From: a virus
Virus record (IMG/VR): IMGVR_UViG_3300050029_000114
Coordinates: 22,052-86,051 of that record
Reading direction: 5' to 3' (one strand)
DNA length: 64,000 nt
Each line of letters starts with the position of its first letter. Within the stretch, counting starts at the first letter, position 1. Positions 14,607 to 59,675 of the stretch are shown here, piece after piece. The notes beneath the pieces were generated by a model, which worked only from the letters and a program-made list of their open reading frames with translations, had not been told where the DNA came from and searched no databases. The position numbers were made by a program, and so were the translations under genes.

Positions 14607-15755
14607 TCAGGTGCCCTTGTAGTTGAGAACCTGATGCAACGTGTGCTCGATCGCGACGAGGTCCGCTTGGTCGGCCATCACCTGGTCGATCGACTTGTAT
14701 GAATCGGGGTGTTCGTCGAGCAGCGCCTTCGCGTCTCCGTCATTCCACGCCCGGCCCTTCATCGCTGTCTCTAACGATTCGACGGTCAACGTCTTACGGG
14801 CCGCCGATCGGGACATGCGCCGTCCCGCACCATGTGAGCACGACTCGTAGCTGGCCGGATTCCCGAGCCCGCGGACAATGTAGCTCGACGTGCCCATCGA
14901 ACCGGGGATCACGCCCTCGTCGCCGGTCCCGGCTTTGATCGCCCCTTTGCGGGTCAGCCACACGTTCCGGCCGTGGTGGTTCTCCATCTGCGTGAAGTTG
15001 TGATGGCAGTTGATGCGGCGTACCTCGTTGCCGACGCCGTGCTCCCGGTCAACGCCAACGAATCCCCATAGCTGGGTGAGAACGGCATCCATCATCGCGG
15101 CGCGGTTCCCTAGCGCGTACCGCTGCGCCCATTGCATGTCGCTGATGTAGGCGTCGAACTCGTGGGTTCCCTGGACGAGATAGGCAAGGTCGGGGTCGTC
15201 TAGCTCGATGAACCATTGGCGCATGAGCCGCTTCGCCCCGTCGATGTGCTTCTTGGCTAGCTGGTTGCCGATCCCTCTGCTACCGGAGTGGAGAACGACC
15301 CACACCCGGTCGCGTTCGTCGAGGCAGACCTCGACGAAATGGTTGCCGCTGCCCAAGCTGCCATATTGGTTGGCGGCGGTCGCTGCCTCTTTCTGGCTGA
15401 AGTGCGCTGGTATCTCGACCCCGCGCGCTGATGCGTGGCCCTTGCCTACCCCGGCCGGTACAACCTCGGCGATCCACCCGTGGAGCGGGTCAAGGTTGTC
15501 GGGCAGGCCGTCGGCGACTAGGTCCGTCTCGACGGCGATCATGCCGCAGCCGATATCGACACCGACCGCTGCTGGGACGATCGCTCCTCGTGTCGGGATG
15601 ACCGATCCGATGGTAGCTCCGATACCGATATGGGCGTCGGGCATGAGGGCAAGATGCCCGTCAATGAATGGCAGTCGGCTGGCTTTGGCTGCCTGCTCGA
15701 TCGTGGCGGCCTCGATGTCCGAGCCCCACGCCAGCACGTTACCGATCTTCTGCAC
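14607..15755 (-). CDS. rtcB: RtcB RNA ligase
   Basis: A 382-residue RtcB. The diagnostic motifs are present: GVDIGCGM (metal Cys), GSGNHFVE, LHSGSRG, NCHHNF, PGSMGTSSY and the guanylation motif CSHGAGRRMSR. RtcB joins 2',3'-cyclic phosphate ends to 5'-OH ends, the products of tRNA anticodon nucleases and toxins, using GTP and Mn. The start is GTG at 15755, with GAAAGGG about 9 nt upstream. A tRNA gene lies 1.8 kb away and a highly folded 5' leader precedes it. The likely role is repair of host or phage tRNAs cleaved as an antiphage defence. Confidence 0.95.
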   Translation of the reverse strand: MQKIGNVLAWGSDIEAATIEQAAKASRLPFIDGHLALMPDAHIGIGATIGSVIPTRGAIVPAAVGVDIGCGMIAVETDLVADGLPDNLDPLHGWIAEVVPAGVGKGHASARGVEIPAHFSQKEAATAANQYGSLGSGNHFVEVCLDERDRVWVVLHSGSRGIGNQLAKKHIDGAKRLMRQWFIELDDPDLAYLVQGTHEFDAYISDMQWAQRYALGNRAAMMDAVLTQLWGFVGVDREHGVGNEVRRINCHHNFTQMENHHGRNVWLTRKGAIKAGTGDEGVIPGSMGTSSYIVRGLGNPASYESCSHGAGRRMSRSAARKTLTVESLETAMKGRAWNDGDAKALLDEHPDSYKSIDQVMADQADLVAIEHTLHQVLNYKGT

Positions 15756-15782
15756 CGTCGCTGCCCTTTCTCTCGATTGGCG

Positions 15783-15918
15783 GGAGCTAGGAGTAGGCGT
15801 GTAGAGACGCCTCGTTCTTAGGCCACGGTCTAGTTGTCGAACACAAACCCGACAGCTACGACTCGCCCGCTCGGTATGCAACCTCCTACTAGGTACCGGA
15901 CTGTGGCCTCCTAGCTCC
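15783..15918 (-). ncRNA. Highly structured RNA upstream of rtcB (Y-RNA-like candidate)
   Basis: A 136-nt minus-strand element in the rtcB leader. Its ends form a perfect 11-bp stem (GGAGCTAGGAG, 15908-15918, with CTCCTAGCTCC, 15783-15793). Inside, 15899-15908 pairs with 15821-15830 (one mismatch). That stem encloses two hairpins (15872-15876/15894-15898 and 15835-15839/15850-15854), and a 6-bp hairpin sits beside it (15795-15800/15807-15812). The region has no ORF. Size, end-closing stem and position before rtcB recall bacterial YrlA (Y) RNAs; a cis-acting riboregulator is the alternative. No Ro60 gene is visible. Confidence 0.6.
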
Positions 15919-15927
15919 ACGCGCCGA

Positions 15928-17475: not shown

Positions 17476-17544
17476 CGTGGCTCCTCGCGCTGATAGGGCG
17501 GAACTAGCGACGATGCGAGGGGCGCTCGGCCAACTCGACGTTCG

Positions 17545-17617
17545 AGGCGGAGACGGGACTCGAACCCGTGTCCTCTGGCTTATGAGGCCAACGCGCTACC
17601 GACTGCGCCACTCCGCT
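17545..17617 (-). tRNA. tRNA-Met (CAU)
   Basis: A 73-nt cloverleaf. Acceptor AGCGGAG/CTCCGCC (position 1-72 is an A-C mismatch), D arm GCGC/GCGC with loop AGTCGGTA, anticodon arm TTGGC-CTCATAA-GCCAG (CAU), T arm ACGGG-TTCGAGT-CCCGT. The 3' CCA is not encoded. The CUCAUAA loop fits elongator Met; Ile2, after lysidine modification, is the alternative. Confidence 0.92.
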
Positions 17618-35525: not shown

Positions 35526-37304
35526 TCAGGAACCGCTCAGGCAAAGGCTGGACGTGTCGACGGTGCTGGCCGTCTGGCCGTTCGGGCAGATGTCGAACTG
35601 CAAGCTGATCGACTCGTGGCCCCTGAAGATCGCCTTCTCGAACGTCTCCGAGAACATCTGGAAGTTGTTCGTGGCGTTGAGCGTCGAGTCGCGGATCATG
35701 CCCAGGTTGAGCTCTCCGCCGTCGAGGAACATCCAGCTTCCCTCCGGGTACAGCCAGGTGATCACGTCCTGGCTCCACGGGAGCAGCAGTCCGGCGCCCT
35801 GCACGCCGAAGCCCTGGCCGGACTGGCCGGTCGGGGCGTCCATCGTGCGGGTCGTGTTGATCTGCCGGACAGCGAAGAAGTTGTCGATCTGCGCGTCCGT
35901 CACTGCAAGCCGTTCGGCGCCGCTGCCGCTGTCGCCGGGAAGCTGGCGGGCCAGGTCGACCCGGATCACGTAGTCGAGCCAGTCCGGGTACACGAACCGC
36001 AGCGGGGCGTCCGGGTCCATCCGGTGCCGGTACCGCATGGCGGCGGCGGCCCGGTCGACAATCGCGAGTACGTCTCGGGCTGCGCCGAGCAGGATCGTCT
36101 CGCCGAACGCTGTCGTCGAACCCGTGATCATCGCCGCCTGCAACGTGGCCTCGGCGAGCCGTGCGTGCACGGCGTCGACCTCCTCCAAGTATTGGGCGAT
36201 CTGCTCGGGGAAGTACCGGGACTGGAAGTTGCCGAACTGAGCGATCGACGTGACCGCGTCGACGGTGCTCTCCTGCACGTTCTGGCAAAGGAATGTGGCG
36301 TGGGGCTTCAGGGCCGGGCTCACCGGGTTGGCGTCGTTCGCAGCGGTCCAAAGTGCGGCCGGGCCGTCGGCGGTCACCTGGGCGAGCGTGTGCGGCAAGA
36401 TGTACCGCAATCCGCCTCGGGTCGCCCCGAACTGCGCCATCGCGCCTTTCACGGGCCGGTCAGCGACGCTGATCCCGGCGACGTTGTAATCCACGCCAAC
36501 CGGGCCGCAGATGCCGCCGCTGGCGGTCAGTCCGGCCTCGGCGGCGGCCGCGGCCATCGCTGCGGGCTCCAACACGGCCCGAACCTTGCGGTCGTTGTTC
36601 GCGGCGTCCTGATCGAGCCACCGGTCGGCCGGGTACATCGGCTTGCTGTCGATCATGCCCAACGGGATGAACTCGCCATTCCCGGCATCGCTGCTGACCT
36701 TCATCACGGCGTCGATCCGCTTTTTGGCGGAGTGGGCGAACTTCTCGATGTCGAGCGGTTCGCCCGGCACGATGCCCGGCAGGTCGGCTGAAGCGACCAG
36801 CGAAGGCCGGACCCTGGTCACGGCGTCGGTCGCGGTCGCGGTCGGCCGGTGGGCCCTGGGGGTCCGGCTCGCCAGTCGGCTGATGCGGGGCAGCACCGGC
36901 TCGGGGGCGCCCCCGCTGGCGGCGACGGGCACCGGCTCGGGCTCGACCGTCTCCTCCGCCTCTCCCGTGGTGGGCTCGGGCTCGGTTGCTGTCTCCGCGG
37001 CGGTCGGGTCGCCCTCGGCGACCGTCTCGGCCGGGGCCTCGGCGGGAAGCTCGGCGAGCAGTTCGGCGGCCTGGGCGACGCGCTCGGCACGCTCATCGGC
37101 GTGGGCCTGAAGCTGAGCCTCAATCTCGCGGTTGCGGTCGCGGGCCTCCGTCAACACCGCGATGTCGTCGGCCGACGGGTCGGCCCGGTCAACCGTGGCG
37201 ACTCGCTCGGCGATCGCGGCCTGGAGGGCGTGAAGCTCCTCGTCGGTCAGCGGGTTCGCCTCGTCGTGGAGACGCTCCAACAGGGCAAGCAGTTCCGGGT
37301 CCAT
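35526..37304 (-). CDS. Major capsid protein with scaffold-like N-terminus
   Basis: A 592-residue protein from MDPELLALLERLHDEA (GGAGG 6 nt upstream). Residues 1-95 are charged coiled-coil, like an HK97 delta/scaffold domain. An Ala/Glu/Thr-rich linker runs to about 150. The HK97-like body follows, with IDAVMKVSSDAGNGEF, EQIAQYLEEVDAVHARLAEATL (spine helix region) and MRYRHRMDPDAPLRFVYPDWL (A-domain). The prohead protease upstream would remove the N-terminus. Confidence 0.82.
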   Translation of the reverse strand: MDPELLALLERLHDEANPLTDEELHALQAAIAERVATVDRADPSADDIAVLTEARDRNREIEAQLQAHADERAERVAQAAELLAELPAEAPAETVAEGDPTAAETATEPEPTTGEAEETVEPEPVPVAASGGAPEPVLPRISRLASRTPRAHRPTATATDAVTRVRPSLVASADLPGIVPGEPLDIEKFAHSAKKRIDAVMKVSSDAGNGEFIPLGMIDSKPMYPADRWLDQDAANNDRKVRAVLEPAAMAAAAAEAGLTASGGICGPVGVDYNVAGISVADRPVKGAMAQFGATRGGLRYILPHTLAQVTADGPAALWTAANDANPVSPALKPHATFLCQNVQESTVDAVTSIAQFGNFQSRYFPEQIAQYLEEVDAVHARLAEATLQAAMITGSTTAFGETILLGAARDVLAIVDRAAAAMRYRHRMDPDAPLRFVYPDWLDYVIRVDLARQLPGDSGSGAERLAVTDAQIDNFFAVRQINTTRTMDAPTGQSGQGFGVQGAGLLLPWSQDVITWLYPEGSWMFLDGGELNLGMIRDSTLNATNNFQMFSETFEKAIFRGHESISLQFDICPNGQTASTVDTSSLCLSGS

Positions 37305-37482
37305 CCGATTCCTCCAAGGTGAGCACAGCGGTTTGGGATACATCTCACGAGGGCGAGAACCGGCGGCCGGGCGACTGCGTGGCCTCGGCTGGCCTTTAGG
37401 ATCGGACTAGGTGCGACCCCGCTCTATCTCTTGCCGGGGCAGGGTAGCGCGGATATGAACGGCGTGGGGTGGATGGCGCGCG

Positions 37483-40310: not shown

Positions 40311-42323
40311 TCAGCCCTGCATCGAGGCGACCAGCCGCTCCGCTGCCACCGGGCGCAACGGGGCGATGGTCGCTTCGGCCGTGGCGACTCGGGCCGTCAG
40401 GTCGGCTATCTGCTGCGCCTGCTCGGCCTGCGCCCGCTCCCACGGCATCGGCTGCCGGATAACGCCAGACGCCACGAGGGCTGTGACGGTCCCGTTGGCG
40501 AATGCGGCGTGCGGGTCGCCGATCGGCGCTACAAGCCCGCTGGCGGCCGCTGAGGCGGCTATCCCGGCGATCGGGAAGCCCGGGACTGTCACCCCGGCCA
40601 AGATGGCAACAAGGTCCAGTCCTTTGCCCGACCATACGCTCCGCCAGTCGCCCGAGGTCGAGCACGCGGCGAACGCCTGCACCTGCGCCTCGGTGGCGTC
40701 GAACTTGACGACCCCGGCTATCCACGGCCCGAAGTCGTCATCCCCGGCCACGACCTGCGCCATGCGCTCCACTCCGGGCCCGCCGTCGTAGTGGGCTCGG
40801 ACCGCCTCAACGCTCATCGCTCGGGTCGTGCTGGCATGCCCGCATCCCATCGATAGATGACCGACGTGGACGATGCCGCCCTCGGCCGTCAGGAACGGCC
40901 GCATGTTGAACGCTGCGTACCCGGTCTGGCTGCGCGGCGGGGTCATGCACCGGTCGGTGTACCCGGTGTGGCACGAGAACCAACTGGCGATGTGCCCGTA
41001 CACTCGGCGCCACCCATTCTCGTCGGGCGCCTCGATCGTCAATGGGCAGGCGTACCGGCCGTTCGGCTGGCGGACCATGCGCCGGTCGCCGACGTGGAAT
41101 CCCGGGTTCTCGAAGTACCGTGCTGGCGGCGGGCTCGGCGGCTGGGCGGCAGCCAGGACCGGTTCTGGCTCGGGGTGAAGCTCGGCGGTCGTGGCGGCCT
41201 GCTCGGCGCACTCGACGCACGGCTCGTCAACGGTCGCGCTCGCAGCGACCTGCCCGGCGGTCGGGGCGGTGTCGGCCTCGATGAACGCATCCTCGAACGC
41301 CGGGAACGGCGTCATCGTCAGGCCCATCACCCGGATCAGGCTGAACTTCACGATCCCGTCGATGCAGTCGCCGTCCATGTCCCGCTCGGTGCACTCGAAC
41401 TCGCCTTCGCTCTCGCACACGTCGATCGAAACGCCGAACTTGCCGCGGGCCGCCACGATCTGCTCGGCCTGACGGCCTGCGTCGCTGTCGTCGTAGAAGC
41501 CTTTGCCCATAGCGACCTGGCTGACCGTCCCGACGCCAGTGATCGCCCCCGCCAGGACGGCGCCATAGTGGCCGCCCTCGGTGACGGTCTGGAGCATGAG
41601 CGGTTGCGGCGGGTTCCTGTACTCGATGGCCCCCGGGTTGATGTACCGGCCGTCGCCGGTCGGCTTGCCCTCGTACGCCATCTCGCTCCGCCATCCGCCC
41701 GCCAGCACCGGCCGGTCGCCTTGTGCTAGCTGCTCGGCGAGCGCATCCATCACGGATACATAGCCGCCAGTAACGTCCGGCGTCCCAGCCCACTCCGCGG
41801 TCGGCACCGCGGCGGCCGCGGTCAGCCCGGCCTCGGTCCAGTTCTTCGCGTCGATGAGCCGCCAGTCGGCGCCGTCCTGCTCCACGCCGAACCGGGCCCC
41901 TAGCCGGGCCATCGTCTCGGCAACTGGCTCCCAGGTGCCGCCTGTCTCCGCGCTGGCGATGAACTGGTCGATCCCTAGCGGCTGGGCGTGCTCGACCGTC
42001 CCACCGGTCAGCATCCCGGCGGCAAGGACAGCCGCGCCGTGGCCGTGGCCGTGGTTCGCGTCGCCGCTGTGGCTGTGCTGATGGTCATGGGTCGTGTCGC
42101 CTCCCTGGCTGCCGTAGCTCGGGTGCGGGTGACTGTGATTGCCGTCAATGGGCGCGTGGGCGGCGGCAAGCTCGACCCCGAACGGGGCGACAGGGCGCGC
42201 CGTGTTGGTGAAGGTCGTGCCGGTCACGTCGCCGACCGCGACGCCTCCTCCGGGCGGGAGATGATCAGCCGGTACCCCGGGCGGCTGTCCGGGTGCGTGC
42301 CGCTCGAACAGCTTCGACTTCAT
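40311..42323 (-). CDS. Prohead protease-like protein with His-rich loop
   Basis: A 670-residue protein. GKGFYDDSDAGRQAEQIVAARGKFGVSIDV...DGIVKFSLIRVMGLTMTPFPAFEDAFIE (about residues 270-345) has the layout of HK97-type prohead proteases. The N-terminus has a His-rich stretch (residues about 63-96, including HDHQHSHSGDANHGHGHG). The second half (RMVRQPNGRYAC...HIASWFSCHTGYTDRCMTPP) with many His/Cys and a helical end is a separate domain. It lies just upstream of the capsid region. The fusion to a large extra domain is unusual. Confidence 0.7.
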   Translation of the reverse strand: MKSKLFERHAPGQPPGVPADHLPPGGGVAVGDVTGTTFTNTARPVAPFGVELAAAHAPIDGNHSHPHPSYGSQGGDTTHDHQHSHSGDANHGHGHGAAVLAAGMLTGGTVEHAQPLGIDQFIASAETGGTWEPVAETMARLGARFGVEQDGADWRLIDAKNWTEAGLTAAAAVPTAEWAGTPDVTGGYVSVMDALAEQLAQGDRPVLAGGWRSEMAYEGKPTGDGRYINPGAIEYRNPPQPLMLQTVTEGGHYGAVLAGAITGVGTVSQVAMGKGFYDDSDAGRQAEQIVAARGKFGVSIDVCESEGEFECTERDMDGDCIDGIVKFSLIRVMGLTMTPFPAFEDAFIEADTAPTAGQVAASATVDEPCVECAEQAATTAELHPEPEPVLAAAQPPSPPPARYFENPGFHVGDRRMVRQPNGRYACPLTIEAPDENGWRRVYGHIASWFSCHTGYTDRCMTPPRSQTGYAAFNMRPFLTAEGGIVHVGHLSMGCGHASTTRAMSVEAVRAHYDGGPGVERMAQVVAGDDDFGPWIAGVVKFDATEAQVQAFAACSTSGDWRSVWSGKGLDLVAILAGVTVPGFPIAGIAASAAASGLVAPIGDPHAAFANGTVTALVASGVIRQPMPWERAQAEQAQQIADLTARVATAEATIAPLRPVAAERLVASMQG

Positions 42324-42804: not shown

Positions 42805-45636
42805 CTAGGCGTGGACCGCCCGGCGATGCCCTACCTCCGCTACCTCCCCGGAGTCCGGGACCGCAAGTGGATCGTTGACCGTCCGGACGTGGGCGGCGGA
42901 CCCGCCGGTCGTCGTCGTTACCGCCCACGCGACCGGATCGGCCAGCGCGGAGAGGTCCGTCCCCGCGTAGACCGGATGGCGGGCCGGGACCGGCCCCTGC
43001 ACCTGGCGGCGCCCGCCGATAGCGTCCACCCATCCGAGGTCGAACCCGCCTAGAAGGTCCGTGACCGTGAACATGAGATAGCGGATAGCCGTGAACGGGT
43101 CGGAGAGGCCCTCCGCGTCGGTGAGCGTCCACACGACCGGGGAGTACTGGAAGATTTCGGCTAGCTCCTCCGCGTCCGTGATCGTCCGGCCGAGCACAAG
43201 CCCGGCCGTCTCCGCGTCCGTCAGCCCGGCCGGGTCTATCAGCGCCCGGACGTAGCTCTGACCGGTGACCTTCGGGTCCGTCAGCCCGGCTGCGTCGAGC
43301 ATGGCCCGGGCGAACTGGCGCGCCGTCGCGTCCGCGATCCCGGCGGGGTCGGTTACCGTCCTGCCGAAGTTGCTCACCCGGCTCGTCGCGTCCGTCAGCC
43401 CGGCGGGGTCCGCGATCACCCGGCGGCTAGCCTCCAGCCGCGAGGACGGATCGGTCAGACCGGCGGAGTCCGTGATCGTGCGGGCCAGGTTCCGGGCGGC
43501 CGGGTCCGTCAGGCCGAGGGCGTCCGTGGCGGACCGTACATAAGTAGCAGCCCGGGCGGCCGGGTCCGTCAGGCCGAGGGCGTCCGTGGCCGGGCGGCCG
43601 AATCCTTCCGCCCTGCTCGTAGAGTCCGTCAGCCCTAGAGCGTCAGTCGGCGACTTCATTATCGCCACGACGGCGACCTTCGGGTCCGTCAGCCCTTCAG
43701 CCTCAGTAACGCTCCGGACCGACGCCTCCGCGCGCCCGGCTGCGTCCGTCAGCCCGGCCGGGTCCGTGATCGTGACAGCCAGCGCGCGGACCTCACTGTC
43801 GCTGATCCCCTCCGGGTCGCTCACCGGCCGGGTAAGACTCCGAGGCTGGCTATCCGATAATCCCGCCGCGTCGGCTGTGAGGACCCTAGAGAGGCCCCTC
43901 GTCTGACTGTCGGTGAGTCCTGCGGCCTCCGTCGCCAGTACGCGAGCTATGGCCCGGGACTCCGTATCCGTTAGGCCCTCTACGTCGGCCAGCGCGCGGG
44001 CTACCGCCCGGATGAGGGCGTCCGTCAACCCTTCCGTATCGGTTGGCGCCCGGAGGGATGCGACGGCCCGGCCCAGCGGGTCCGTCAGCCCAACTAGGTC
44101 GGTAATCGTTCGGACTACGGCCCTAGTCTCCGCGTCCGTCAGCCCGGCTAGATCAGTCAGCGAGCGGCCTACCGCCCGAGTGAGGGCATCTACGAGGCCC
44201 TCCGTCTCCGTCAGCGTCCGGGTTAGAGCGTCAGCGCGCGGGTCGGTCAGTCCCTCCGCCTCGGTCGCGAGGGTCCGGCTCAACGTCCGAGGCTGGGTAT
44301 CCGTCAGCCCGCACGCGTCCGTGACCGTCCGGCTCCACGCCGTCCCGCCCGGCGTGAAGGTCTGGACTATCGCGTCGGTCAGCCCTTCCGCTTCCGTCGC
44401 CAGGGTACGGTCGAGGGTCCGCGGAACGGAGTCCGTCAGGCCCTCCGCCTCAGTGAGCGCCCGGGAGAGCGTGTCCGCCCGGGAGTCCGTCAGACCCTCC
44501 GCGTCCGTGAACGTCTGCTTGTAGGCGGCGGCCTGCGTGACCGGGTCGGTCAGTCCCTCCGCCTCCGCCGTGAGCGTCGGGGAGAGCGTGCCCGGCGCCC
44601 GGAAAAACCAGCCGGTGTTCCGGGCTGTGTCCACAGAGTTGGCCCCGGCGTACCAGCTAGCTCCGCCGGTCGCGGTCGAGTCGGTCAGGTCCAGAAAGTT
44701 GACGGATACCGACCCGGACGCCTTCGAGAGCGTCCACGCCGTGCTAGGGGTAGAGGAGACGAACGTGAACACCTTGCCAGTGATAGCGGCAGAGGAGAAC
44801 GTGGTCACCGTCCACGTCGAGCTAGCGCCCATCGTGTAGGTCTTGGCGTTCGCCGTCCCCTGAAATGAGAGGGTTCCGAACGTGCCGCCACCGAGGAGGT
44901 TCATCCCGGAGCCGGTCTGTGTCCACTGGATATTGAGAGTCCCGATGGACAGGGAGGAGGCGCCCTGCCACGTTCTCGCCCCGGCAGCCGCGCTCGTAAG
45001 GTTGAAGGTCGCGGACGCCCCGGAGAACGTCAGACCGGTGACGTTCGTCGCGTCGAAACAGGTTCCGGACGCAGCGAGGTTGAAGGTTGCCGCTCCCAGC
45101 GTCACGACCCGGGTCGATCCTCCGGTGATCGCGAAGGAGCCGATCGAATAGGTCAGCCCGTTGTAGTCCACGTCCCCGAGGGAATGGGTAAGAGTGGTCG
45201 ACGAGCTACCAGTCAGCCCGTGGTTCACGAACTGGTATTTGCCGTTGGTGCTCGTGGAGAACGTGACGTTACCGGTGGTCTGCCCGCCGAAATCGATCGT
45301 TAGCCGGGTCGCTGACACGGTGGACTTAAACGTCCATGCCGAAGTCGTCGCGTTGCTGAGCGTGTACGTCCACCCGGAAGTCGGGAACTTCAGTGCAAGC
45401 GTACCGTTGGCGGTGCTCGTCCCGACCTGAATGTTGAACGCGCCGTGCGTGAACGTGTTCGTGTAGCCCGTCAGATCGATCGACCGGCACGACGAGGTAG
45501 AAGTCACGCTGATCGACCCGGATGTGGCGGTCGCGACCACATCGTCGGAGGCGGTCGGGACGGCTGCCTCTACCCAGGTGGCGGTATCAGACCAGGCCCG
45601 GGTTCCTCCGGAGTTACTGATCGTCCGGGTCGCCAC
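42805..45636 (-). CDS. Fibre-like virion protein 2 with EGLTD tandem repeats
   Basis: A 943-residue paralogue of the 26826-29090 protein. Both start MATRTI and share the N-terminal beta region (DDVVAT.TSG, CRSIDLTGYT, GTSTANGTLAL, GWTYTL). Residues about 350-850 (about 43080-44590) carry nearly 30 repeats of the 17-residue EGLTD unit. The C-terminal 80 residues are non-repetitive. Starts with GTG. Two such genes suggest a duplicated surface fibre with variable repeat number. Confidence 0.75.
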   Translation of the reverse strand: MATRTISNSGGTRAWSDTATWVEAAVPTASDDVVATATSGSISVTSTSSCRSIDLTGYTNTFTHGAFNIQVGTSTANGTLALKFPTSGWTYTLSNATTSAWTFKSTVSATRLTIDFGGQTTGNVTFSTSTNGKYQFVNHGLTGSSSTTLTHSLGDVDYNGLTYSIGSFAITGGSTRVVTLGAATFNLAASGTCFDATNVTGLTFSGASATFNLTSAAAGARTWQGASSLSIGTLNIQWTQTGSGMNLLGGGTFGTLSFQGTANAKTYTMGASSTWTVTTFSSAAITGKVFTFVSSTPSTAWTLSKASGSVSVNFLDLTDSTATGGASWYAGANSVDTARNTGWFFRAPGTLSPTLTAEAEGLTDPVTQAAAYKQTFTDAEGLTDSRADTLSRALTEAEGLTDSVPRTLDRTLATEAEGLTDAIVQTFTPGGTAWSRTVTDACGLTDTQPRTLSRTLATEAEGLTDPRADALTRTLTETEGLVDALTRAVGRSLTDLAGLTDAETRAVVRTITDLVGLTDPLGRAVASLRAPTDTEGLTDALIRAVARALADVEGLTDTESRAIARVLATEAAGLTDSQTRGLSRVLTADAAGLSDSQPRSLTRPVSDPEGISDSEVRALAVTITDPAGLTDAAGRAEASVRSVTEAEGLTDPKVAVVAIMKSPTDALGLTDSTSRAEGFGRPATDALGLTDPAARAATYVRSATDALGLTDPAARNLARTITDSAGLTDPSSRLEASRRVIADPAGLTDATSRVSNFGRTVTDPAGIADATARQFARAMLDAAGLTDPKVTGQSYVRALIDPAGLTDAETAGLVLGRTITDAEELAEIFQYSPVVWTLTDAEGLSDPFTAIRYLMFTVTDLLGGFDLGWVDAIGGRRQVQGPVPARHPVYAGTDLSALADPVAWAVTTTTGGSAAHVRTVNDPLAVPDSGEVAEVGHRRAVHA

Positions 45637-46740: not shown

Positions 46741-46917
46741 CTAGACCTTCGAAGTAGTCGCCATGGCTGCGGCTCGGGCCACGGCCGCCTGGGTGCTGGC
46801 CTCCGTGACCTTCGCACCCTTCCCGGGCGCCGGACGCCCTTTCTGCGCGGCGTGGATCAGGCGGGCGTTCGTGCGGGCCTGCTGGATGCGTTCAACGATC
46901 CGGTCGGCCTGGCTCAT
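46741..46917 (-). CDS. Small basic protein after the portal gene
   Basis: A 58-residue protein (MSQADRIVERIQQARTNARLIHAAQKG). Helical, basic, Ala-rich C-terminus. ATG overlaps the portal stop (ATGA). No family; a minor head protein or internal peptide is possible. Confidence 0.65.
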   Translation of the reverse strand: MSQADRIVERIQQARTNARLIHAAQKGRPAPGKGAKVTEASTQAAVARAAAMATTSKV

Positions 46918-49900
46918 ACAAGTCCTCCCTGGCGGGCGATCCGCAAGATAGTCCGGTAGAGGGCGTCGGCGCTCATCGGGTTATGCGGGTCGTCGATCCC
47001 CGGTGGCACCAACTGGTCGAGTCGGCGCATCGCGGCCTGCTCCTCGGTCCGGTACATCGGCCCCCACTCGTCCTGGCTTTCGCCCGTGAACCTGGCGACC
47101 TCGGCCTCCAAGCTCGTAACCTCCTGCACGTAGTCGGCCTCGGTCATTTCCCATGCTGGGGTGCCGCCACGCTCGGCGGCGCTCAGGATCATGCGGGCCT
47201 CGTCGGCCTGGGCGGTCGCCTCGACGCGGGCTATCTCGGCGGCCGCCTCGGCCCGGTTCGCCATGATCGAGTTCAAGTCGTACGGGGAATCGATGAGGCT
47301 GTTCACGTTGAGCCCGCCATACCGGGTCGTGTCGACGATGGCCCGGCCGTTGCTCAGGGTGTTCGCCGCGTCGATGATGCGTGTCTCGGTGAGCCATATC
47401 TGCATGGCTTCGTCGGTCGTCAACTCGCGGCCCAGCAGCCGCGACAGGCTGGCGGCTATCTCGTCGGGGCTCAACGCCGTCGAATCCCCCGCCAACGCAA
47501 ACCAGTTTTGGGTCAGCCGGGATGTTTCCTTGTCGGTCAGCGCGTCGTACCAGTCGGCGTTGTACCCGCCCGGCCTCACGTACTCGCCGTTCACGAGTAC
47601 CGACTGCGGGGGCCGCTGCACCATGCCCTTGTCGGCCTCGGCGTTCTGCAACAGCGACGTGTGCTCGTCCCTGATCCCGCCCAAGATGTCCCTCAACTCG
47701 GAACGGATCGCGTCGACCTCGCCCTTCGCCCACGCTTCAAGCTCGGCCGTGACTTCGCCGTCGGCCTGCGCGAAACCAAGCAAGTCGGCGAGAGCTCCAG
47801 GGTCGAGAGTGCTCGCCGTCCCGGTGTCCGCCATGCTCGTGCCCTCGTCAACGGCGGCGCCCTGGTCAACGAGGTCGCCGTTCTCGTCGACCACCGGGCT
47901 CGGTTCGCCGTTCGTGTCGATGATCACGGGCGCCATGTCGCATGTGCAGCCGTCGTGGTCGCCCGGGAAGAAGAAGTCTGTTTCCGGCCAACCCTCATTG
48001 TTCGCCAACACGTCGTCGTCGAAGTTCACGAACGTCACGCCGTCGAGGGACTGGTGCGGCTCGAATGGCCGCTCGGCGCCACCCCACTGCCACTCGTATC
48101 CGTCGATGCCGCCACCGGCCGCGTCGACGACGCCCATCATCGCCTCGCCCGTCGCCACTCCGCCCAGCGGGTTCCCGCCCGCGTCGGTGACCGGTTGGCC
48201 GTTCCCGCCTTGCGGGTCGGCACCACCGGCTATCCCCATCGATTCGCGCACCAGCGACGAAGGGATCGTGATCGAAGGGTCGGCTTCGCCCAAGCCTGGC
48301 GCCCCGGCGGTCGGGTCGTACAGGCGTTGCCCGGCTAGGGCGGTCAACGAGTCCGTCAGGTTCGTGACGGCGGCGTCGGTCGCGGCCTGGGCTCCTGCCA
48401 TCAGATCGTCGACAGCGGTTTGCGGTGGGGCTCCCAGCCCGGCCTCGATGGCGGTCAACGCCTGGGAGCGGGCCAGGTCGATCCACGCCCCGGTGTCCTC
48501 GGCGAGTCCGTCGAACGCCCCGGCCAGCGGGTCGTCGACTCCGGCCGCGGCAACTAGCTCCGGGCCGCATGTCACCGTCACGAGCCGATTCGGCTTGTCC
48601 TTGATCAACGCTGCGATCAGAGTTTTCTCGCCACCCTTCGCCCGGTGGGTCGCTGCCCGTATCTTCGCTCCGGCGCGCTCCAGGGCCCGGCGCATCGCCA
48701 CGTCCGACTCGATCAGGATGCGGTGCCGTAGCTGGCGGTCTATCTCCGTGAGGCGGGCCCCGACGTTGGTTGCCACTCCGGCGGCCTGGAACGCCTTAGC
48801 GAGCCCTGTGGGGGCCTCTCCTGCCCGAATCTCGGCCCCGGCCGGGGCCGTGTGTGCGGCTGCTGCGGGTGGGGTTGGGGCCGCGGCCGGGGCGGGCGGC
48901 GGGGCGGGCGGCGGGCTGCCTGGGCCCGGTATCGGCATGGCCGGGCCCTGCACGGGTGGCACGTTCGATCCTGGCATCTCGACGATGCCGGACTGAGGGG
49001 CCGGGACGAGAACGCCGGGGAACAGCCCGGTCCTTGCTAGAAGCTGGGAGAACAGGAACGGGTCCATGCGCGGCGAGTTGAGCATCAAGCGGAGAAGTTT
49101 CTCGTCGTCGTCGGGTGCGTCGTCCTCCCTGTACCCGACGTATCGGCGGCGGGCCTCCTCGCTGATCACGCCGTCGCTGAACGCCTGCTGGGCGTTCTCA
49201 GCCTGGTCCGGATGGACGATCAGGGCGGTCGCGTCGAACCACACGAAGATCGTCCGGGCGACCGCGGGGTCTACACCGGCCTCGATGAGCGCGCCCTGGA
49301 AGTATCCGGCCGTCAGGGCGTCGCACACGAGGATCGCCCTGGGCTCGATGTGGCTGTCGAACTCCTCCTCCTTGATGGTGGCGGCGTTCGCGAACGTCGT
49401 GTTCATCATCCCGAGCGTGACCTCGACGGGCATGTTCAACCCTCGGGCGATCCGCAATATCCGCTGGTCTATCTCCGCCGCCAAGATCGGGTCGCGGGGC
49501 CGGGAGAGGATCAGGTGCCGAACCTCTTTCAGCACTTCAGCCGGGCCCCGGATCACCACCGGCACGACGGCGGCGGCGCTGCCTTCCTCCTGTATCGGCG
49601 TGATCATCGACTCGGCAAGGTCGGCCGAGAACGGATCTTCCGTCTCCTCGCCATCGCCACCGTCGCGGGTCGGGTCGGCGCTCCCGAAGCTCAGTTCGCT
49701 CGGCACGAGCAGGATGCCGCTACTTAGCCGGGACTTGGCCCCGGCCCGAACCTCCCGGGACAGCAGCAGCAGCGCCTCGCACTCGCTGAGCACGCCCCGC
49801 ATCGCGCACGTCGCCAACGCCGAGATACGCGGGTGGCGCTCCCACATGCGGATCACCACGTCGTCGGCCGGTACCGGCGTGCCGCCCTGGCTGTTCCCCA

Positions 49901-51605
49901 GCCCGTCCCGCACGATGTACTCGTCGCCCACGACGGTCAGTTCGTCCACCGACCGTATCTGCCACTCCTCGTCTCCGGTGTCGGCGTCCTCGTGGCCGTG
50001 CAGGTAGCACTCGGCGGCGACCTCGAAGTTGAGGCTCATCTCCCGCACCAACGCGCTCTGACCGCCCTCGGTCGACCGCAACCGGGCGAGGGTCGCCATC
50101 GCTATCTTCGCCACCGTCGCATCGACGTTCGCCTCGTCGCTGTCGACCGCGATCGGCGCCTGCTCGGGGTCCGGCTGCACCGCGGCGTACAGGCGCAGCT
50201 TCGACATCAGGTTCGCCAGGAAGCTCGTCGAGTTGCCGGTGTAGTAGACGGTCCCGTTGCGGCGGGCCAGCCAGGTTCCGTTCGCTGTCGTCGGGCACCA
50301 AATCGTCCCGGTGTAAGTGGTCCGGGTGAGGGAGCAGTTGCGGAGCCCGACTGTCACCTTGCGCTTGATGGTCAGGAGCGAGCGGTCCTCGGTTCGGTCG
50401 CGCCGAATCTGTGGAAGGCGACCACTCAGGATGCAGGCCAACGCCACGGGCTCTAACCATCGGCTGTTCTTTTGGCCGATGATCGTCGTGCCGTCCGGCT
50501 TGACGTGGCCGTCCGCGGCTATCGAAGTTGCTATGAACAGTTCAAGCTGGGCAGCGGTTAATGCGAGGATGAACCCGTCGGCTACCTGCTTGCCCGGCGC
50601 CACTGAAAGCAGCAGGGCGGACGCTGCGAGGTTCATCTTGAAATGCGAGATGGTCGAGTTAGGCGGCCGGTACTCACGCCATGCGGGCTCCGGGTTAGTC
50701 GTCCTGCCCGCGCCTAGTGACTCGGCCTCTGGCCCGATGAGCGCGGTGAGCGCCGCCCGGATGCGGGCCACGTTCTCGGGGTACGCGCTGTGCGACTGGT
50801 AGATAACGGCACGGCGCCGGTTGATCGTCCCCTCAGTCCAGAACCATGCCACTAGTTCGACCAGCGCATCCGACCATTTCGGGTCGGTCGGCAAGTCTGC
50901 GCTCGGCGCTGCTGTGAGCAGGCGGAACGGATGGTGGCCGCCCACCTTGCATCGGTCGCCGATGCTGGCTAGCTCCTCTGACGTTGCCCAGCCAGTCAGC
51001 CAATGCCTAGGGCCCGCGCTATCCCGCTGGCGCTCGGTCGGCCAGCGGTGCCCGAGGCTCGACAGCGAAGAATGGTCCCGGCCCTCCACCGACAACATCG
51101 GCTCATCGGCAACCTCAAACCGGTTGACCGCCTCGACCGGCTGCCACTCGCTCAACCCGGTCGCCGTGTTCAACGTCAGCGCCCGGTCGCCCTCCTCTAC
51201 CTCATCGACCGACAACCAACCCCGTGTCGTGAGGATTTCGGACATACGGTCCAAACAGTAATGAACTTCACCAATTTCATCGAAGTAGTCCCATGCCTCG
51301 CTCTGCCAGGTTTGGCGGCGGCGGCGGGCCCCGGCGACGGCCCTGCGGTCGTGTAGGTCGACTCGTGCCGCGCTGGCGATCAGGGCCGGTTGGGTGTTCG
51401 TCCGGCGCCCGAATGTGTGCGCTTTCGCCGGGAGGACCGCGTCCGGCGTGACGGTGCCCTGCGTGGCCCGCTTGCTCTTGCTCCTCGCCACCGACCTGCC
51501 CGGTTCGGGTTCGGTCGGCGGCGGGCTCGCCGCTGTCACCGCGTCAGTGCCTAGGTGCTCCTCCCGGCGTCGCCGCTCGCTCGGTGTCTCCCGCGCCCCG
51601 GCCAT
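46914..51605 (-). CDS. Portal protein with intein and MuF-like C-terminal region
   Basis: A 1563-residue precursor starting MAGARETPSE (TGATG overlap with the upstream gene). Extein parts: QTWQSEAWDYFDEIGEVHY then STSFLANLMSKLRLY, the conserved actinophage portal helix, interrupted by a 342-residue intein. The portal core continues to about residue 950. Near residues 1180-1225, PHQSLDGVTFVNFDDD...FPGDHDGCTCDMAP resembles the MuF minor-head motif, and about 300 helical residues follow. The spliced product is about 1221 residues. No separate MuF gene is seen, so portal and MuF functions appear fused. Confidence 0.85.
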   Translation of the reverse strand: MAGARETPSERRRREEHLGTDAVTAASPPPTEPEPGRSVARSKSKRATQGTVTPDAVLPAKAHTFGRRTNTQPALIASAARVDLHDRRAVAGARRRRQTWQSEAWDYFDEIGEVHYCLDRMSEILTTRGWLSVDEVEEGDRALTLNTATGLSEWQPVEAVNRFEVADEPMLSVEGRDHSSLSSLGHRWPTERQRDSAGPRHWLTGWATSEELASIGDRCKVGGHHPFRLLTAAPSADLPTDPKWSDALVELVAWFWTEGTINRRRAVIYQSHSAYPENVARIRAALTALIGPEAESLGAGRTTNPEPAWREYRPPNSTISHFKMNLAASALLLSVAPGKQVADGFILALTAAQLELFIATSIAADGHVKPDGTTIIGQKNSRWLEPVALACILSGRLPQIRRDRTEDRSLLTIKRKVTVGLRNCSLTRTTYTGTIWCPTTANGTWLARRNGTVYYTGNSTSFLANLMSKLRLYAAVQPDPEQAPIAVDSDEANVDATVAKIAMATLARLRSTEGGQSALVREMSLNFEVAAECYLHGHEDADTGDEEWQIRSVDELTVVGDEYIVRDGLGNSQGGTPVPADDVVIRMWERHPRISALATCAMRGVLSECEALLLLSREVRAGAKSRLSSGILLVPSELSFGSADPTRDGGDGEETEDPFSADLAESMITPIQEEGSAAAVVPVVIRGPAEVLKEVRHLILSRPRDPILAAEIDQRILRIARGLNMPVEVTLGMMNTTFANAATIKEEEFDSHIEPRAILVCDALTAGYFQGALIEAGVDPAVARTIFVWFDATALIVHPDQAENAQQAFSDGVISEEARRRYVGYREDDAPDDDEKLLRLMLNSPRMDPFLFSQLLARTGLFPGVLVPAPQSGIVEMPGSNVPPVQGPAMPIPGPGSPPPAPPPAPAAAPTPPAAAAHTAPAGAEIRAGEAPTGLAKAFQAAGVATNVGARLTEIDRQLRHRILIESDVAMRRALERAGAKIRAATHRAKGGEKTLIAALIKDKPNRLVTVTCGPELVAAAGVDDPLAGAFDGLAEDTGAWIDLARSQALTAIEAGLGAPPQTAVDDLMAGAQAATDAAVTNLTDSLTALAGQRLYDPTAGAPGLGEADPSITIPSSLVRESMGIAGGADPQGGNGQPVTDAGGNPLGGVATGEAMMGVVDAAGGGIDGYEWQWGGAERPFEPHQSLDGVTFVNFDDDVLANNEGWPETDFFFPGDHDGCTCDMAPVIIDTNGEPSPVVDENGDLVDQGAAVDEGTSMADTGTASTLDPGALADLLGFAQADGEVTAELEAWAKGEVDAIRSELRDILGGIRDEHTSLLQNAEADKGMVQRPPQSVLVNGEYVRPGGYNADWYDALTDKETSRLTQNWFALAGDSTALSPDEIAASLSRLLGRELTTDEAMQIWLTETRIIDAANTLSNGRAIVDTTRYGGLNVNSLIDSPYDLNSIMANRAEAAAEIARVEATAQADEARMILSAAERGGTPAWEMTEADYVQEVTSLEAEVARFTGESQDEWGPMYRTEEQAAMRRLDQLVPPGIDDPHNPMSADALYRTILRIARQGGLV
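50232..51257 (-). mobile_element. LAGLIDADG intein in the portal gene
   Basis: 342 residues (117-458 of the precursor). It begins with Cys1 (CLDRMSEILTTRGWLSVDEV, N-terminal block A) and has a block-B-like SLSSLGHRW. It ends in block F/G GTWLARRNGTVYYTGN followed by Ser+1. The penultimate residue is Gly rather than the usual His. LVELVAWFWTEGTI and FIATSIAADGHVKPDG are the two LAGLIDADG-type helices of a homing endonuclease. The insertion is at a conserved portal site, Y-S. Confidence 0.9.
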
Positions 51606-57961: not shown

Positions 57962-58209
57962 GGTCCCTCCCCCGCGACGATCAGGGCCATGAGCGACCAT
58001 ATGGCTGCGGCCGAGTGGCCGTTAAGCTCGCCGAGAACGTTGAGAACGCCGGTCAGGCAGGTGGCAAGCTCGACAGCGAGAGCTCGGGGGTCCGGGTCGG
58101 CCTCAATCTCGCCGACCGCGGTGGCGTGATCCTCGGCCAGCATCGCTGTCACGACCCTGAACATCGTGCGGGCCGTCTCGGCGGTCGGCCCGTGGATGGG
58201 GGCGCTCAC
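57958..58209 (-). CDS. Small helical protein after the phosphoesterase gene
   Basis: An 83-residue protein from GTG 58209 (GTGA overlaps both ends). All-helical (AETARTMFRVVTAMLAEDHATAVGEIE ... LATCLTGVLNVLGELNGHSAAAIW). No signal peptide. Possibly a regulator or immunity-type partner of the exported enzyme, by position only. Confidence 0.6.
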   Translation of the reverse strand: MSAPIHGPTAETARTMFRVVTAMLAEDHATAVGEIEADPDPRALAVELATCLTGVLNVLGELNGHSAAAIWSLMALIVAGEGP

Positions 58210-59675
58210 GTCGGGTCGTCCGGGTTGTCGGGGTTCGCCTTCAACTGCCGGTAGGTGGCGGCCGGGACTTTCCGTTCTGGCAGCCAGTGCGGGGCGCTGG
58301 GCGGCGGGAGCGTGAAGTCGAACACCCGGTGGAAGTCGTAGGCGGTGCCGTCCGGTGTGGTCGGGCTGATAGGCGGCGCATTGAACAACCACTCGATCAG
58401 GGCGTCCACGCTGGTCGTGTCGGCGGGGGTGCTGTCCGTCCAGCCGAGCCGGACGTACGCTCCCTCGAACACGGCCGGGATGCGCAACCCGACGGGTCGG
58501 CCGTTGATGATCTTCTGGCCGACGGTCCGGTCCAGTTCCCCGGTGTAGAAACACCCGCAGTCGTCCCACGTTTTCATGAACACGGCCCCGGCGTGCTGCG
58601 GGCCGCCCTGCATGGCGTTGATCACCCGGGCGGTCATGTTCTCCCCAACCTGCCAACTGTCGAGATTGTGCTGGCTGTAGTTGCCCGCATCGTCCTGGCC
58701 GGGCAAGAAGAAGCTCACCTGGGGCAGCGTGCCGTTCGCGGCGTCAACGAAGTACTGGCTGTCCGGCTTCAAGTTGTTGCCCTCGGCCGTGTAGATGCAA
58801 CTGGCGAAGCTCGGGCAGATCGCAAACTGGTAGCTGCCGACCCCGGGGCTCGCGGCCCCGTAGATACGCCACGTCACCCCGGCGGCATCCAAGTCTTGGA
58901 ACAGGGTCGGTATGTCGGGCTGCACGGCTGACGGCCGGTAGGCGCCCTGGTATCCGGGGATGCCGGGCAAGCTGCTCGTGTAACACGAAGGCTGATAGCT
59001 CGTCACACCGGTCGGGCTGCGCCACTGTGCGTCGTCGTTCCCGTTGCACGCCCAGCGGGCCCCGAGATGGGTGATGCTGCTGTAGGTCGGCAACTGGCCG
59101 GTGAAGCCTTGGGTCTGGCCTGCCGTGGCGAAGTCGGTGTGCCCGGTCCAGCTTGGCACCGGGTTAGCGGAGTGGTAGTTATCCGCGACGGTTCCCTGCT
59201 GCATGAGTGCCGTCTCCGTGAACGCGGCGGAGGCGGTGATGTACTCGTAGCAGTCTCCTCCTCGATGGCCGGGGTTACAGCCGGTCACGGAGGCCCACTG
59301 GTTATTCATCGCCAGCATCTGGCCGGGGACACCGTGATCTATCTCCGGGGGGATATCGCCCTGGACGGTCGGGGTCGCTGTGACCGGAACACCTTTCTTC
59401 GTGAACGTGTGGATGAGGGCGGTCACGTCGAATGGCTGGCCGGTCCGCGGGTCGACGTTACAGGGCGTCGGCCGGGAGACGGTCATGCAGGCGGCGCCTA
59501 GGGCATGGTCAAAGCTGTTGTTCTCGTCAAGCTGGATGATCAGATGACGGATAGGGGTAGGGAGGGCGGCGGCTCGTAGAGACGCCTGGGAGACTCCGGC
59601 TACGGATAGCGCGGAGAGAGCGGCCATCGCCCCTAGCGAGGCTAGAGCGACCGCTCGTACGGTTCTACGGGTCAT
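58206..59675 (-). CDS. Exported phosphoesterase, phospholipase C/acid phosphatase family
   Basis: A 489-residue protein. Signal peptide 1-31 (AVALASLGAMAALSALSVAG). HLIIQLDENNSFDHALG (44-60) is the N-terminal metal and nucleophile motif of the family (usually MENRSFDH). FMKTWDDCGCFYTGE corresponds to the TxDExGGxYDH motif, and TTSVDALIEWLFNAPPISPTTPDG to the HTSVxxFIEWxFGLPPLT region. Known members cleave phospholipids or phosphomonoesters outside the cell. Several motif residues differ, so substrate is open. CCCTCACC leader and AAGGAAGG site precede the ATG. Confidence 0.83.
   Translation of the reverse strand: MTRRTVRAVALASLGAMAALSALSVAGVSQASLRAAALPTPIRHLIIQLDENNSFDHALGAACMTVSRPTPCNVDPRTGQPFDVTALIHTFTKKGVPVTATPTVQGDIPPEIDHGVPGQMLAMNNQWASVTGCNPGHRGGDCYEYITASAAFTETALMQQGTVADNYHSANPVPSWTGHTDFATAGQTQGFTGQLPTYSSITHLGARWACNGNDDAQWRSPTGVTSYQPSCYTSSLPGIPGYQGAYRPSAVQPDIPTLFQDLDAAGVTWRIYGAASPGVGSYQFAICPSFASCIYTAEGNNLKPDSQYFVDAANGTLPQVSFFLPGQDDAGNYSQHNLDSWQVGENMTARVINAMQGGPQHAGAVFMKTWDDCGCFYTGELDRTVGQKIINGRPVGLRIPAVFEGAYVRLGWTDSTPADTTSVDALIEWLFNAPPISPTTPDGTAYDFHRVFDFTLPPPSAPHWLPERKVPAATYRQLKANPDNPDDPT

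Follow-up and report, generated by a model that had tools for sequence, protein, structure and literature searches.

An intein with both LAGLIDADG helices in a viral portal gene fused to a MuF-like region, and its relatives at neighbouring sites of one helix

The window analysed here is a stretch of 64,000 nucleotides, bases 22052-86051 of an 86,051-base IMG/VR virus record. A single open frame of 1563 codons occupies positions 46914-51605 of its minus strand, and the ATG of this frame overlaps the stop of the upstream gene as TGATG. The features of the gene are listed below. Residue counts, here and throughout, refer to 89 distinct relatives of the intein, the window included.

46914..51605, minus strand: portal-MuF precursor gene with the intein (open reading frame; phrog_776 and phrog_324 matches)
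51258..51605, minus strand: N-extein (116 aa), with its end inside the first conserved portal helix, EAWDYFDEIGEVHY (alignment to 124 intein-free portals)
50232..51257, minus strand: intein of 342 aa, Cys1 to Asn342 (family alignments; AlphaFold; PDB matches)
51042..51059, minus strand: splicing block B, SLGHRW, with His70 (B10; H in 89/89) and Trp72 (B12; W in 86/89)
50349..50885, minus strand: LAGLIDADG homing endonuclease domain, intein residues ~125-303 (I-DmoI matches)
50829..50867, minus strand: LAGLIDADG helix 1, ALVELVAWFWTEG, with acid E142 (E/D in 87/89)
50508..50546, minus strand: LAGLIDADG helix 2, LELFIATSIAADG, with acid D249 (D in 86/89)
50232..50309, minus strand: splicing blocks F and G, with Cys321 (F4; C in 89/89), Thr340 (G5; T in 89/89), Gly341 (G in 87/89) and Asn342 (N in 89/89)
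48639..50231, minus strand: portal body within the C-extein, Ser+1 at its start (phrog_776)
47832..48794, minus strand: MuF-like region fused to the portal (A7 alignment; model pLDDT 83.3; BFVD matches)
47937..48059, minus strand: MuF-like His/Cys segment PHQSLDG...GDHDGCTCD (invariant H, G, C, C and D columns in eight relatives)
46914..47831, minus strand: C-terminal extension beyond the MuF-like region (end partly common to the IMG/VR relative L001)

The precursor matched the portal family phrog_776 (E 6e-90, precursor residues 463-989), and its identity as a portal is solid. Without residues 117-458 it has 1221 aa. Both this length and the gene coordinates were confirmed on the open reading frame as given in a preliminary description of the locus. 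That description had proposed an intein in a portal-MuF fusion gene, and the borders, the fold, the relatives and the phrog_776 match agree with it, the MuF part moderately. The intein borders read GEVHY / CLDRMSEIL...VYYTGN / STSFLANL. In context (DYFDEIGEVHY / CLDRMSEILTTRGW...VYYTGN / STSFLANLMSKLRLY), the first conserved portal helix is split. The proposed Y-S junction was borne out by 124 intein-free portals (public viral contigs and phages, N-termini), which aligned gaplessly across it, with the helix running uninterrupted through the junction.

The portals of cultured relatives have 542-576 residues. Closer metagenomic relatives, with the intein removed where present, have 830-870 residues and carry the same PHxxLDG...GDHxGCxCD segment, and the long fused portal is common to intein-bearing and intein-free relatives (L146, L148, L153, L003). 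The portal had earlier been called unusually long, with a MuF-like Cys/His segment inside it. The length and the segment were both found, but relatives also have the long fused form. Fusion to the MuF-like region accounts for the length of the window portal, which shares with L001 the presence of a further C-terminal extension, for which a Pfam search of 46914..47831 gave no match. The portal-MuF fusion of L001 (L001:9505-11250) has a longer C-terminal part, in which an ADP-ribosyltransferase-like stretch was seen by eye; a Pfam search of this part also returned no match.

We assign the fused region to MuF with moderate confidence. The precursor matched phrog_324 (head morphogenesis) with an E of 7e-4, PF04233 was found in two relatives at sub-threshold level only, and the segment named above is conserved in portal relatives. 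The named proteins among the BFVD structural matches of the region model were mostly minor capsid or head morphogenesis proteins, and a PDB fold search with the model gave nothing significant.

Intein relatives aligning end to end (residues 1-342) were found in independent phages by tblastn, with E values down to 2e-64. Searches of the intein against Pfam and NCBIfam gave no match, and a single-sequence PDB search gave nothing useful. An AlphaFold model built from a 50-sequence alignment reached a mean pLDDT of 94.6 and a pTM of 0.92. It superposed on the bifunctional inteins TliVMA (Z 25.4, 302 residues), PI-SceI and PI-PfuI, and the predicted fold of the splicing part is that of a Hint domain. 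The endonuclease part (model residues 130-308) matched I-DmoI. The earlier observation that both LAGLIDADG helices are present agrees with the fold and with the acids E142 and D249. A second intein was looked for in the window's own 86-kb record and none was found.

The residues of a class 1 intein are present, namely Cys1, Ser+1, Ser67 and His70 of block B, and terminal Asn342. At the block B position of Ser67, only 4 of the 89 relatives have Ser and most have Thr. The penultimate His that is usual in class 1 is absent, its place being taken by Gly341; this His is not obligatory. Kelley and colleagues (2016) have shown that class 1 mycobacteriophage inteins are often without it and have Gly, Lys or Ser there (PMC5050341). 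Of the 89 family relatives, 87 have Gly in the penultimate position, and one each has His and Ala there, a count that is biased towards Gly by the TGN contained in one of the two search patterns. Searches without the TGN pattern recovered family members with the same ending.

The closest splicing-tested homologue of the window intein is distant, at about 21% identity. The mycobacteriophage RDF intein (Bethlehem gp51, compared through its homologue SargentShorty9 gp54) aligns end to end with the family (hhalign probability 99.3, E 2e-20). Like the window intein, it has a penultimate Gly, WC in block F and Cys1; unlike it, it lies in a different host gene, shares only about 21% identity, has Val rather than Trp at B12, and has been shown experimentally to splice. 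With its native Gly the RDF intein splices completely, and its G316H mutant takes over 5 hours to reach half completion (PMC5050341). The preliminary description had pointed to Gly before the terminal Asn as an oddity. The Gly is there, but the family count and the published precedent (PMC5050341) rule out an anomaly, and Gly341 is the normal penultimate residue of the intein family.

Portal inteins are already known. Family members are carried in the portals of several Gordonia phages (Belphegor, Hail2Pitt/Woes/Lahirium), and portal inteins were included in an earlier survey (PMC5050341). Further members lie in TerL of GordTnk2, GordDuk1 and GMA3, in gp135 of Mycobacterium phage Pinkcreek, and in the portal of Caudovirales GX15bay, whose host is not stated. 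The actinophage and GX15bay inteins resemble the window's end to end (33-42% identity, Cys1, TGN followed by S, C or T, LAGLIDADG), but they occupy other genes or other portal sites (NHW/SAW, YLE/SQMR; the slash marks the insertion point). At the NHW portal site of another contig (L005:1321-2525, the same as L082), a family intein has its last part out of frame, which may reflect decay of this copy or an error in sequencing.

We collected 78 distinct family members from viral contigs. Portal-like proteins, which fall into three groups, hold about 36 of them; the others are spread over terminase-like genes and many further genes of phages. The family profile matched in 23 of 296 Actinomycetes genomes; the strongest matches were mostly family members at one amidase-like site (e.g., /SFMACPHG), and the weaker ones were other inteins. 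The portal helix of the window carries inteins in five other IMG/VR portals (L001, L003, L030, L034 and L111). In the portal tree, L034, L111 and L030 each group with intein-free portals, and the intein-free L146 is sister to the window and L001 together. Five presence changes are needed on this tree to account for the six carriers, yet their inteins are close relatives. This patchy distribution, together with intact endonuclease motifs, fits a homing selfish element. The phage record of L034 also contains a second, distant intein (L272) in a 1063-aa frame, which ends CGN/T and is similar to ThyX-type inteins.

We consider it very likely that this is a homing intein, which splices out of the portal-MuF precursor and uses cleavage of portal genes lacking an intein to spread. 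It would be a bifunctional element inserted in the first conserved helix of the fusion protein. Once the protein is translated, the Hint domain would excise itself and join Tyr116 to Ser459, which would give the 1221-aa portal-MuF protein. Unspliced, the helix would be split by 342 residues and a working portal would not be expected; we share the earlier view that splicing is probably needed for an intact portal. The LAGLIDADG domain would cut the intein-free portal alleles of co-infecting phages, and the intein would spread by homing. This explanation is supported by the seamless intein-free portals, the bifunctional intein fold, and the presence of the complete set of splicing residues and of the two endonuclease acids. 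It is also supported by the end-to-end match to the RDF intein, of a kind shown to splice with its native Gly (PMC5050341), by the patchy distribution and by the 78 family members. The distance of the closest splicing-tested homologue and Ser67 in block B count against it. The borders, the fold, the conserved residues and the patchy distribution were observed directly; for the window intein itself, we infer splicing, cutting and essentiality from homology, and homing likewise. Taken by itself it is one more portal intein; two family-level features, mixed motifs and neighbouring sites, bear on open questions.

Cys1, His B10, Cys F4, Thr G5 and the terminal Asn are invariant in the family (89/89), and Trp B12 is present in 86 of 89. 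Trp B12, Cys F4 and Thr G5 form the signature of class 3 inteins (PMC7891396, PMC7664689), and this triad is complete in 86/89 members; in the window it consists of Trp72, Cys321 and Thr340. However, class 3 inteins are defined as lacking a Cys or Ser nucleophile at position 1, where the family always has Cys. In a structure-based alignment, MchDnaB-1, a class 3 intein, had the top identity (26-27%); for the splicing domain only, the class 3 AceL NrdHF intein was the best match by Z. MchDnaB-1 and the PhoH inteins L294-L296 share with the window His-x-Trp, the block F Cys and Thr G5, but they are without Cys1 and have His before the Asn. The PhoH inteins, of class 3 type, begin with Pro and end in THN.

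The first nucleophile may thus be Cys1, Cys321 in class 3 style, or both, and the sequence is compatible with each. In a class 3 variant of the homing intein explanation, Cys321 with His70, Trp72 and Thr340 would attack the N-junction and Cys1 would be dispensable. The nearly universal triad, the two top structural matches and the same His-x-Trp, Cys and Thr arrangement in MchDnaB-1 (PMC7664689) argue for this route. Against it, Cys1 is invariant, unlike Pro1 of the PhoH inteins, and the F4 Cys of the related RDF, ThyX and methylase inteins is not accompanied by the Trp. In a splicing-block tree with long branches, the PhoH inteins fall together with a TOPRIM intein having both motif sets (93/90), and the tree does not resolve how these inteins relate to the window's family. 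We regard the class 3 route as plausible, though we lean against it.

Loss of the first nucleophile from a phage intein has been proposed as the origin of class 3 inteins (PMC3196547). A large family of phage inteins that combines Cys1 with Trp-Cys-Thr would offer a natural test ground for this proposal. Outside the family, an Actinomycetes genome contains a TOPRIM (primase-type) intein (L302) with Cys1, HRW, VFC and TGN, that is, with class 1 and class 3 motifs. Tori and Perler reportedly described mixed-motif inteins earlier, in 2011.

The six inteins in the portal helix occupy four sites across 15 codons, with 4, 5 and 6 codons between successive sites.

WQ/SDAW: L030, 15 codons upstream of the window's site
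DAW/TY, DAW/SY or DAM/TY: L003, L034 and L111, 11 codons upstream of the window's site
DE/CGEV: L001, 6 codons upstream of the window's site
HY/STSF: window

In the intein tree, where L026 and L028 stand for the contigs of L001 and L003, respectively, the six helix inteins form one clade (83/91). They share this clade and the helix, but the five others differ from the window in site. The window intein has its sister in L001 (100/99), which is inserted at another site, and L030 is placed with L003 (97/86). Forcing the three same-site inteins together was disfavoured (AU p 0.022), which is moderate evidence, as this test was framed once the tree had been seen. One-codon shifts between close relatives were also seen in other portals (GHQ/STTF versus HFN/TTFA; TY/S versus TYN/T).

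Adjacent sites are not new, since the TerL1-a and -b sites lie one residue apart (PMC5050341), and haloarchaeal MCM has four close intein sites (PMC10643990). According to published accounts, inteins at the same site are close kin, and those at different sites of one protein are often highly divergent (PMC2814812, PMC9957025). The neighbouring sites are compatible both with relocation of one insertion and with repeated invasions by endonucleases of relaxed specificity. We also considered that the intein brings its own +1 codon to new sites. Cys, Ser or Thr at +1 occurs in 2%, 0% and 2% of the 124 intein-free portals at three of the four sites. This idea was rejected, because the nearest intein-free relatives (L146, L202) have Thr at two sites; only L001 still fits, with Cys where 124/124 have Ile or Val. 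Sister inteins a few codons apart in one helix would make the origin of new insertion sites testable.

A bolder reading joins the two features. The family would be a living class 1/class 3 intermediate in which both nucleophiles are used or kept, and family members would shift a few codons along the helix. We think this improbable; if it were true, the rule equating an insertion site with a single intein lineage would fail for this family.

The preliminary description had also suggested that the intein could act as a timing or environment sensor. Slow or conditional splicing, aided by the missing penultimate His, would then delay portal assembly. Some inteins are known to splice conditionally, for example that of mycobacterial DnaB (PMC6195587), and an unspliced portal is presumably inactive. 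However, Gly is the family norm, the tested homologue with Gly splices to completion and is slow as a His mutant, and intein-free relatives manage without the intein. The sensor role found no support, the patchy distribution and intact endonuclease motifs fitting a homing selfish element instead, and we judge such a switch very unlikely. Still harder to credit is an intein that splices poorly or no longer, in a phage that is a defective relic. The relative L005/L082, out of frame near its C-terminal end, speaks for this; the open 1563-aa frame, the intact catalytic residues and the high-confidence fold of the window intein speak against it.

Several other genes of the window were noted. A 943-aa minus-strand protein (42805-45636) has, in its second half, 25 copies of a unit of 18-20 residues (TDAEGLTDPxxRAxxRT-like), and it matched phrog_12240 weakly. 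Between this GLTD-repeat protein and the major head protein (35526-37343) lies a minus-strand protein (40311-42323) that matches the C-terminal part of phrog_859 (portal) and phrog_18402 (head maturation protease). A phosphoesterase/phospholipase-C-like protein (PF04185, E 9e-30) is encoded at 58206-59675 of this phage record. An RtcB tRNA ligase gene (14607-15920, E 6e-110) lies near a tRNA-Met (CAT) gene (17544-17617), and the pair may possibly serve the repair of cleaved tRNA.
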